64,000 nt of DNA, from NCBI RefSeq assembly GCF_009756665.1, contig NZ_CP037953.1, positions 3,038,001-3,102,000 of the forward strand, in the 5' to 3' direction. Shown here piece by piece: positions 394 to 3,489 of this stretch. The notes beneath the pieces are model-generated. The model searched no databases, had not been told where the DNA came from, and worked only from the letters and a program-made list of their open reading frames with translations. The stretch comes from Permianibacter aggregans. Its GTDB lineage: Bacteria; Pseudomonadota; Gammaproteobacteria; Enterobacterales; Permianibacteraceae. Positions within the stretch are counted from its first letter, which is position 1. Each line of letters opens with the position of its first letter. The translations under genes and the position numbers were made by a program.

Positions 394-559
394 GAGCCAG
401 GCCGGAAATTTTCCGTACACTGGCGGCTCGTAAACGGAACTTACGACTGGGACCAAAGCTAAGGACAAGCTGAGCAGGGACGGTGCAGGGAGCACAAACG
501 TTTCACAGGACGAAACATAGGCGAAGTAAAAAGGGCAGAGCGAACACTCTGCCCTTTTT
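394..559 (+). ncRNA. CsrA/RsmA-sequestering sRNA 1 (RsmY/RsmZ/CsrB-like)
   Basis: A GGA-rich RNA gene of about 166 nt without a convincing ORF. At least four short stems present GGA in the loop: TCGTAA/TTACGA at 428-446, AGCT/AGCT at 457-471, GTGC/GCAC at 483-495 and GTTTC/GAAAC at 500-516. Such hairpins are the binding sites by which CsrB/RsmY-type RNAs titrate the translational repressor CsrA/RsmA. The gene ends in a strong intrinsic terminator and has a GacA box upstream. The 5' end is estimated, not seen. The exact Rfam family is not decided. Confidence 0.8.
528..559 (+). terminator. Intrinsic terminator of sRNA 1
   Basis: AAAAAGGGCAGAG, a CGAACA loop, then CTCTGCCC and a T run form a perfect 8-bp GC-rich stem followed by U residues, extended by A-T pairs on both sides. 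Confidence 0.9.
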
Positions 560-712
560 CTTTTTCGGCCGAAAAGTGACTATCCCTTCAGCGAAGAAAA
601 AATTGCTCGCCGACCATCCAAATCGAACACGCTTTAATAGCGTCCATTTGCCCGACTCAACGGAATAAGCAAAACTCTGTTCATTGCCGAATGTAGGATT
701 TGCCCGTCGGTT

Positions 713-730
713 TGTGAGATATCTCTTACA
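713..730 (+). promoter_or_regulatory. GacA/UvrY-type upstream activating sequence for sRNA 2
   Basis: TGTGAG-N6-CTTACA, the same 18-bp arrangement as at 215-232 and with the same G-for-A deviation from the GacA consensus. Its centre is about 168 bp before the predicted start of the second sRNA. Confidence 0.8.
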
Positions 731-877
731 AGCGTGTGCGTCAACGTGGTGACTCGCTGTTTCAGATAACCCAAGAAAGCTTGTATCTCACTGATTTAAA
801 AGGAAATACATATATTTCGATTGGATGGCAAACGGAGTTGTTCAGTTTTTGAACGGTGAAATTCGACGGATCTACCC

Positions 878-883
878 GATAAT
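878..883 (+). promoter_or_regulatory. -10 element of sRNA 2
   Basis: GATAAT differs from the sigma-70 -10 consensus by one base and sits 7 bp before the first GGA hairpin. No clear -35 box lies at 16-18 bp, as expected for a promoter driven from the distant GacA box. Confidence 0.55.
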
Positions 884-889
884 GCTCCC

Positions 890-1082
890 CGTGCAGGACG
901 CACACGGAATGGAAAACACCAGGATGGTGGATAGCCAGGATGGCTGCAAGGATGGAACAGGGAACGGCAGGACGCCGGCAAAGGATGAACGATTCACCAG
1001 GATGGTGACCAGGGAAGTGCACAGGACGTGCTTGCCTCAAGGGAACGGGCTTGCAAAAAAGAGCGCATCGGCGCTCTTTTTT
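890..1082 (+). ncRNA. CsrA/RsmA-sequestering sRNA 2 (CsrB/RsmZ-like)
   Basis: An RNA gene of about 193 nt with a dense array of AGGA(T/C)/GGGA motifs. Six perfect short stems display AGGAT or AGGAC: GTGC/GCAC 891-903, CACC/GGTG 917-929, AGCC/GGCT 933-945, CGGC/GCCG 965-977, TCACC/GGTGA 994-1008 and GCAC/GTGC 1019-1031. Further GGA motifs lie between them. This is the hallmark of CsrB/CsrC/RsmZ RNAs, which bind several CsrA/RsmA dimers. The GacA box, a -10 element and a terminator complete the gene. The short ORFs crossing it are products of the repeats. Confidence 0.88.
1055..1082 (+). terminator. Intrinsic terminator of sRNA 2
   Basis: AAAAAAGAGCGC, an ATCG loop, then GCGCTC and six T residues: a perfect stem with a U tract directly after the last GGA element. 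Confidence 0.92.
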
Positions 1083-2070: not shown

Positions 2071-3489
2071 ATGAATGGAATATTCCGTCGATTTTCCCGT
2101 TTCACCCACTACCTGTTACTGCCAGTACTGGCAACGCTGACATTTGCGATGCCAGTGCGCGCCGAGTTAGGTGATTACTCGGCCTGGCAGACGTTTCTGA
2201 ACCTGTTCAATCCACCGAAAGCCGACAACAAAGTCACGCCGGATCAACGACAGGGCGATTACCCGCTGCTGGCCAATCCTGGTGGCTTCAATGCCGGCTT
2301 TTCACCCGGCAATTACTACGCCTGGCAAACCGTGAAGCTGGCGCCGGAAACCGGTGCTGTGTGCGGCAACGGCTCGACCTATAAATTTTTCGTCAACCGG
2401 GTGCCGAATACCCGCAACACGATTATTTATCTGGAAGGTGGCGGTGCCTGTTGGGATTACGCTTCCTGTTCCGGTGCCGCCGGTATTCGCGGCGCGCGCA
2501 ATCCGAATGGTATTCCCGATGACTACATGAGCCTGATGAATCCGGGCGCGTCTCTGGTTTCGCCATTTGTTGTGCGTTTGCATCCGTGGACCCGGACCAA
2601 AACCCAGAACTGGAATATGGTCTATGTGCCGTATTGCACCGGCGATATTTATTCCGGTGACAAGGTGGCGATTTATGAAGACGAGAACGGCCAGAATGCG
2701 CCACTGGTTTGGCATCACAACGGTTTGCGCAATATGCGTGCCGTGCTCAGTTGGTTGAAAGACAATCTGCAGCGCCCAACGCAATTGTTGACCACCGGTT
2801 GCAGTGCCGGTGGCGCCGGTTCGCTAACCAACTATGCCCATATTCGCCGCGACATGGAGCCAACCAAAGGTTTTCTGATCGACGATTCCGGGCCGGTTTT
2901 TGCCGCGCCTGTTGGCGGCAATGATAGCCAGTACCCGAGCATTCGCCTGCAAAATCATATTCGTAGTGCCTGGGGTTTAAGCAACGGTCCGCTGTCGTAC
3001 ATGTTGGCCGAACTCGGACCGTATGGTTTGAATCTGAACAATCTCGGTACGATTTATTCGGCGCTGTCATCGCGTTGGTCGGCAGACCGATTGGGGCATA
3101 CCCATTTCTGGCAGGATCTGAATTATTCCTCGTATTCCTACGAGCGTTTCTATGAGGATATTTTCAACGATCCGGATCAGGCCAGCCGTCAGGCGAAAAT
3201 CAAAGCGCGCTGGGCGGTGGATACCGACCGGCTGAAAACAACACTGAACGGGCTGAATAATTTCGGCGGCTACTTCCCGCAATTCCGCGCCGTCAATGAA
3301 AGCCATTGCACGTCAATCATCGAGTTTGCCAATGCCGATATTCAGGAGCAGGGCCTGGAGCTCGATCACTTCATCAACAATGTGTTGAACGGCAGCGGCA
3401 ATGTTATGGATGCATCGGAAAGCAGTCCACAGCAGGATTACAACAAGCCGTTCAATTTGCTGTATTGGACATTGGATCAATTGCTCTGA
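2071..3489 (+). CDS. Secreted pectinacetylesterase-family hydrolase
   Basis: A 472-aa protein with an N-terminal signal peptide (Arg-rich start, hydrophobic core YLLLPVLATLTFA, then VRA). The body matches the pectinacetylesterase/Notum family (PF03283): an oxyanion segment IYLEGGGACW, the nucleophile motif TTGCSAGG, the acid segment LIDDSG and a late NESHC histidine. It probably deacetylates a carbohydrate or other ester outside the cytoplasm; the true substrate is unknown. ATG 2071 is preferred over the longer frame from 1969 because a TGGAGG ribosome site lies just upstream and the signal peptide then starts at the N-terminus. It is monocistronic, closed by a terminator. Confidence 0.82.
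   Translation: MNGIFRRFSRFTHYLLLPVLATLTFAMPVRAELGDYSAWQTFLNLFNPPKADNKVTPDQRQGDYPLLANPGGFNAGFSPGNYYAWQTVKLAPETGAVCGNGSTYKFFVNRVPNTRNTIIYLEGGGACWDYASCSGAAGIRGARNPNGIPDDYMSLMNPGASLVSPFVVRLHPWTRTKTQNWNMVYVPYCTGDIYSGDKVAIYEDENGQNAPLVWHHNGLRNMRAVLSWLKDNLQRPTQLLTTGCSAGGAGSLTNYAHIRRDMEPTKGFLIDDSGPVFAAPVGGNDSQYPSIRLQNHIRSAWGLSNGPLSYMLAELGPYGLNLNNLGTIYSALSSRWSADRLGHTHFWQDLNYSSYSYERFYEDIFNDPDQASRQAKIKARWAVDTDRLKTTLNGLNNFGGYFPQFRAVNESHCTSIIEFANADIQEQGLELDHFINNVLNGSGNVMDASESSPQQDYNKPFNLLYWTLDQLL

Follow-up and report, generated by a model that had tools for sequence, protein, structure and literature searches.

What is encoded between the end of dapB and the next protein gene in this genome, and is it part of the Csr/Rsm regulatory system? 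In the window, i.e. the whole stretch of 64,000 nucleotides that was analysed, the order from the start is the dapB end, box 1, RNA1, box 2, RNA2 and a glycosylase gene on the opposite strand. Boxes, hairpins, terminators, conservation, the homology of RNA1 and the genes of the circuit were all computed. We give a probability of about 90% to the reading that RNA1 (~428-563) and RNA2 (~889-1083) are two separately transcribed sRNAs which sequester CsrA and are activated by BarA-UvrY. The features concerned are the following.

1-201, + strand: dapB 3' end (whole gene G000:C1:3037380-3038201; open reading frame; TIGR00036 275.1 bits, cut-off 122)
215-232, + strand: UvrY/GacA box 1, TGTGAGAGATCGCTTACA; 17 of 18 letters equal the E. 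coli csrB repeat in the excerpted text of PMC4682653
309-321, + strand: IHF-like site between box 1 and the RNA1 promoter (relaxed pattern; weak alone)
416-421, + strand: candidate -10 of RNA1, TACACT (read by eye; absent from the promoter scan output)
428-563, + strand: RNA1, putative dapB-linked Csr-type sRNA of ~136 nt (start inferred; model R1 match 426-560)
428-446, + strand: RNA1 GGA hairpin 1 (pattern scan; energy fold)
457-471, + strand: RNA1 GGA hairpin 2 (pattern scan; not in the minimum-energy fold)
483-495, + strand: RNA1 GGA hairpin 3 with the GCAGGGAGCA motif, common to dapB-linked RNAs of family f8
500-516, + strand: RNA1 GGA hairpin 4 (pattern scan; energy fold)
528-563, + strand: RNA1 intrinsic terminator (hairpin 528-559 plus T-run; terminator scan and folding)
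713-730, + strand: UvrY/GacA box 2, TGTGAGATATCTCTTACA; 17 of 18 letters equal the E. coli csrB repeat
784-796, + strand: IHF-like site between box 2 and the RNA2 promoter (relaxed pattern)
878-883, + strand: candidate -10 of RNA2, GATAAT (promoter-like stretch 856-883 in the promoter scan)
889-1083, + strand: RNA2, putative second Csr-type sRNA of ~195 nt (start inferred; 15 GGA in 889-1084)
891-903, 917-929, 932-946, 965-977, 994-1008 and 1015-1033, + strand: six RNA2 GGA hairpins (pattern scan)
1055-1084, + strand: RNA2 intrinsic terminator (hairpin 1055-1082 by folding)

dapB ends at 201 and box 1 begins 13 bases beyond it; the two RNAs lie on the same strand, ~325 bp apart. The gene after RNA2 lies on the other strand with its 3' end at 1211; Pfam places it in the uracil-DNA glycosylase superfamily (89.8 bits, cut-off 24.3), and a search with this gene returned 80 loci from many phyla. 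A stretch with a second terminator-like hairpin, a dispersed repeat, follows the RNA2 terminator at 1080-1146 and recurs at three further places in the genome and once in G002, a genome of the same family (76-78% identity). Further along, 2071-3486 on the + strand codes for a protein of the pectinacetylesterase family (Pfam PF03283, 72.8 bits, cut-off 26.6).

The two boxes fit the pattern TGTNAGN6CTTACA with zero mismatches; no other place in the 4.27 Mb genome does, and the reversed pattern, used as a control, found no match there. Allowing up to one mismatch within the window gave four strand matches, all at the two boxes, against 0.24 expected. Counted from the putative -10 positions, the boxes would lie at about -204 (RNA1) and -168 (RNA2). 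In E. coli the csrB repeat TGTGAGAGATCTCTTACA is centred at -183/-182, a putative IHF site lies between repeat and promoter, and the CsrB level is down about tenfold without IHF, as stated in the excerpts of PMC4682653. The relaxed IHF pattern, with up to one mismatch, matched in all six promoters compared (RNA1 and RNA2 of the window and of the sister species G001, from the same genus, as well as A and B of G002), 72-106 nt after the box start; this is suggestive only, because the pattern is loose and other matches lie nearby. The promoter and terminator totals from the scan were near chance (for terminators, 5 against 3.9 expected), and the simple terminator scan missed the terminator of RNA2.

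The preliminary description had claimed at least four GGA stems in the first gene and six in the second, each gene with a GacA-type box and an intrinsic terminator. All of this was recovered: the pattern scan gave four stems in RNA1 and six to seven in RNA2 (the seventh, at 1036-1049, is weak), beside the exact boxes and the two terminators listed above. The interval then proposed, 394-1082, needs correction, since it leaves out box 1 and opens ahead of the probable start of RNA1 (~428).

The GGA richness of RNA2 is above chance. In a count over 2552 windows of 200 nt, moved by 50 nt on both strands (mean 1.9, sd 1.5), the one at 851 ranked first with 16 GGA. A span-limited energy fold placed seven GGA of RNA2 in hairpin loops, and without that limit two of the GGA hairpins paired with each other. 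At 889-1084 the fold was matched by 2 of 200 shuffles, and at the wider limits 870-1082 it was only slightly above shuffles (11 of 200 as good). RNA1 is beyond chance by its box, its fold and its conservation, and its GGA count is not decisive: 17 windows outside both RNAs have as many as its seven GGA or more. Energy folding of RNA1 keeps three of the four pattern hairpins and replaces that at 457-471, where an A-U pair of the window is G-C in the sister species, by another pairing. The span-limited fold has three GGA inside hairpin loops, and the RNA1 fold was better than 200 of 200 shuffles.

Covariance models place both units near CsrB. The search proposed in the preliminary description had a divided outcome: nothing in the window reached an Rfam gathering cut-off, and CsrB (RF00018) matched both units below its cut-off of 71, RNA2 with 39.3 bits and RNA1 with 24.1 bits. 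Under permissive settings this model covered both over their full length (E 4e-9 and 1.6e-4), and elsewhere in the genome it matched nothing at E <=0.1, with 28 of 69 first-look candidates scored. PrrB_RsmZ (RF00166) gave no match in the window at its gathering cut-off of 44; the RNA1 counterpart of the sister species scored 30.5 bits with it, below that cut-off. Other Rfam matches of the permissive scan, at E 0.049 or worse and mostly on terminator hairpins, were discarded. The genome furthermore encodes the circuit: one match to CsrA, a single BarA over the cut-off among 68 matches (931.7 bits, cut-off 890) and a UvrY-family regulator (333.9 bits, NCBIfam cut-off 280), which lies directly upstream of uvrC with pgsA behind. 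GGA loop hairpins, a UvrY/GacA repeat upstream and CsrA, BarA and UvrY encoded in the same genome are the marks of the Csr/Rsm class, and all are present here. Together with the CsrB matches and the conservation in the sister species they argue, from sequence, for the earlier claim of two sRNA genes of the CsrA/RsmA-sponge type.

A second line of evidence for RNA1 came from another family, f8, which may be Kangiellaceae. A dapB match was present in 38 of its 40 genomes; loci from 30 were analysed and the 8 others left out. In its main genus, g9, a GCAGGGAGCA-type motif (up to one mismatch) followed by a terminator stood behind dapB at 18 of 19 loci; the nineteenth (L231) is cut by a contig end, so that all 18 testable loci were positive. 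The motif begins 286 nt after the end of the dapB match in RNA1 vs 294-330 nt at these 18 loci, and 17 of the 18 carry a loose box pattern. In G306 (g101, L238) two such units stand in tandem behind dapB with a box-like repeat before each. No such RNA was found behind dapB at the f8 loci of g89 (7 of 7) and g100 (2 of 2). In eight g9 sequences the named stems keep 98.5% of their pairs, against 35-53% for slid versions of the stems, and in four pairs both bases have changed; we take this covariation as modest evidence, because the structure was derived from the same eight related sequences.

From these eight dapB-linked RNAs, without the window genome, we built a covariance model, R1. It found all of ten other g9 loci (105-141 bits), the two L238 units with 72.8 and 28.1 bits, RNA1 of the window with 41.1 bits and its G001 counterpart with 37.2 bits. 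In its own genome RNA1 was the top match (E 1.4e-8; the next at 0.01, with 60 of 204 candidates scored). R1 did not find the RNA gene at L248 2330-2740 (G214, g74), where dapB is followed by a box, 13 GGA within 150 nt and a terminator; this gene has therefore diverged or arose separately. Weak R1 matches at E <=0.1 occurred in 36 of 59 genomes, several of them antisense to terminators. R1 matches overlap CsrB matches in G014, G035, G012 and G019, which ties the dapB-linked group to CsrB. We assign RNA1 to this f8 group of dapB-linked Csr sRNAs, defined here and corresponding to no public family: an independent model recognizes it, and it occupies the same place after dapB. RNA2, with an R1 score of 19.2 bits, was not assigned to it.

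These results bear on the best surviving of the rival explanations, in which only RNA2 would be a real CsrA sponge and RNA1 would be no more than a 3' untranslated region of dapB that has a terminator and, by chance, a few GGA hairpins. The low GGA count of RNA1, its weak CsrB score and the interval from dapB, in which the terminator scan detected no terminator, would fit such an explanation. It has to face, however, an exact box in front of RNA1, GGA loops that are kept in the sister species and the rank of RNA1 as the best genome match of a model made from f8 RNAs, and we hold it to be quite improbable.

Two sponge genes being our preferred reading, the age and the meaning of the dapB linkage can be considered. 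Among 30 genomes of 26 families, a survey in which the dapB match itself was weak in G013, G014 and G017, the linkage was seen only in the own genome, G001 and G009. As R1 finds RNA1 best and the g9 loci have their RNA behind dapB in 18 of 18 cases, the linkage is probably older than the genus, judging by sequence; the same-family genome G002, without an RNA at dapB, limits this reading. Downstream of dapB, the first terminator detected belongs to the sRNA at 15 of the 18 g9 loci, in the own genome and in G001; L228, L232 and L233 have an earlier one. Since the detector finds few terminators generally, we treat a dapB mRNA running into the sponge as a possibility. That the linkage is functional, with RNA1 arising from two sources, its UvrY promoter and the 3' end of the dapB mRNA, appears unlikely to us. 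In that case CsrA titration would be fed by diaminopimelate/lysine pathway expression, and the position of RNA1 behind dapB would be maintained by selection in both families. Our incomplete literature search returned no description of the RNA1-type position behind dapB in two families, of an sRNA downstream of dapB or of CsrB in Kangiella. Other RNAs do occur near dapB: in G019, L201 2307-2384 in the dapB region matches DapZ (RF02551, 72.1 bits, cut-off 56).

The sister species G001 informs on both RNAs. A DNA search of 59 genomes, own included, had matches in nine; that in G001 took in 114 bp of RNA1 as well as the terminator of RNA2, those elsewhere were short pieces (terminators, box) or a dispersed repeat. 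The order in G001 is dapB, the RNA1 counterpart, a converging PotF-like gene (below the NCBIfam cut-off), an exact box, the RNA2 counterpart and panC, so both RNAs are conserved there and adjacency is not. A synteny check of the dapB region, likewise suggested beforehand, found both RNAs between dapB and panC in G001, but not side by side. The RNA1 box of G001 has one mismatch. Identity to the window is 103 of 133 aligned positions for RNA1 and 142 of 174 for RNA2; the GGA loops are kept, and substitutions in stems are changed-but-paired. RNA2 of G001 has 8 GGA vs 15 in the window. The other exact UvrY box of G001 (L134, G001:C1:423605-423622) lies ~100 bp upstream of an open reading frame that by eye resembles one for an outer-membrane protein, and not an sRNA; it may be a direct UvrY target.

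This arrangement also bears on whether one long UvrY-driven transcript might run from box 1 through both units, making them a single sRNA gene with an internal terminator. The common strand and the short distance between the units are compatible with it, but each unit has its own box and its own terminator, and in G001 both are still present with a converging gene between them; we regard it as slightly less probable still than RNA1 being a mere 3' untranslated region. That the stretch encodes a short protein, in the open frame 825-1118 (97 aa), can be practically dismissed, as the alignment of RNA2 with its G001 counterpart has, among others, gaps of length 17 and 2, which are not multiples of three and hence not codon-like.

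In G002 two exact boxes occur elsewhere, each followed by 18 GGA (50-450 nt on) and a terminator, with 8 and 11 GGA on the opposite strand. The CsrB model found no match in this genome at E <=0.1, and no such RNA was found behind its dapB (L190). R1 matched the two box-preceded stretches weakly (18.0 and 22.3 bits) and scored better behind the first of them, at L133 2429-2556 (24.3 bits, E 5.5e-5). In the region L133 2241-2560 the GCAGGGAGCA motif and a terminator are present, preceded at ~190 nt by a box-like repeat that has three mismatches. Because of this RNA1-like unit, G002 probably also has a tandem pair, predicted to have the RNA1-like unit second and to lie away from dapB.

The two RNAs of the window give a poor alignment with each other (score -7.5), and from their sequences they are not the product of a recent duplication. 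The alignment nevertheless beat all 200 plain shuffles (mean -25.7, sd 5.4), so a distant common origin is conceivable and the two are perhaps distant relatives.

The preliminary description regarded side-by-side copies as unusual. Our data did not confirm this view. Tandem rsmX pairs are published for P. brassicacearum, P. fluorescens F113, P. stutzeri and P. syringae (PMC7911923). A CsrB search in 40 genomes of the order had a match at E <=0.1 in 27, and besides the own genome and G001, 9 of 38 (G003, G011, G012, G013, G014, G016, G021, G028, G035) had clustered matches, defined as at least two matches on one strand that do not overlap and lie within 2 kb of each other; G037, with two overlapping matches, and overlapping pieces of G003 near 595,000 were left out of this count. 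G011 has five matches in a row. With the published rsmX tandems and these clusters, the side-by-side layout is ordinary; both this kind of sRNA and its tandem layout are already known.

Transcription and its start points, binding of UvrY, IHF and CsrA, and the physiological effect are what we infer from these data. BarA would phosphorylate UvrY, which would bind the 18-bp repeat lying ~204 bp before the start of RNA1 and ~168 bp before that of RNA2; bending by IHF probably brings UvrY and RNA polymerase together, as in the case of E. coli csrB. The RNAs, each predicted to end at its own terminator, would bind CsrA dimers with up to four (RNA1) and six to seven (RNA2) GGA hairpins, and this capture would free the mRNA targets of CsrA. 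RNA1 probably stems from a Csr sRNA already behind dapB in the ancestor common with f8, and next to it RNA2 would act as a further sponge of greater length. The pair probably forms the output arm of the BarA-UvrY-CsrA circuit in a lineage where the curated Rfam cut-offs are silent in this window, and a Csr sRNA is kept behind dapB in a second family too. Split in G001, in tandem in the window, off dapB in G002 and at dapB in G306, these loci offer a series for the question of why Csr sponges occur in several unequal copies.

Compared with known systems, the pair resembles CsrB and CsrC of E. coli (RF00018) in its many GGA hairpins and intrinsic terminators. As at E. coli csrB, a near-identical 18-bp UvrY repeat (17 of 18) lies far upstream with an IHF-like site between, and RNA1 carries the GCAGGGAGCA segment of the CsrB consensus. 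Unlike CsrB and CsrC, the window RNAs stay below the Rfam gathering score, measure ~136 and ~195 nt vs a model of 356 positions, and adjoin each other and dapB. PrrB/RsmZ (RF00166) are likewise GGA hairpin sRNAs of the Gac/Rsm system; in Pseudomonas they are single unlinked loci. Closer in layout are rsmX-1 and rsmX-2 of Pseudomonas, two GGA sRNAs side by side with GacA boxes, of which rsmX-2 is expressed in a GacA-dependent manner; they are 75-85% identical and ~110 nt long (excerpts of PMC7911923), whereas RNA1 and RNA2 are of unequal length, have different numbers of hairpins and give a poor alignment. In having several unequal Csr sRNAs per genome, the organism resembles Pseudoalteromonas fuliginea, whose Pf1-Pf3 have 25, 21 and 9 GGA and partly complement each other but, as far as the excerpts of PMC11882849 indicate, apparently lie at separate intergenic places and not, like the window pair, in one tandem.
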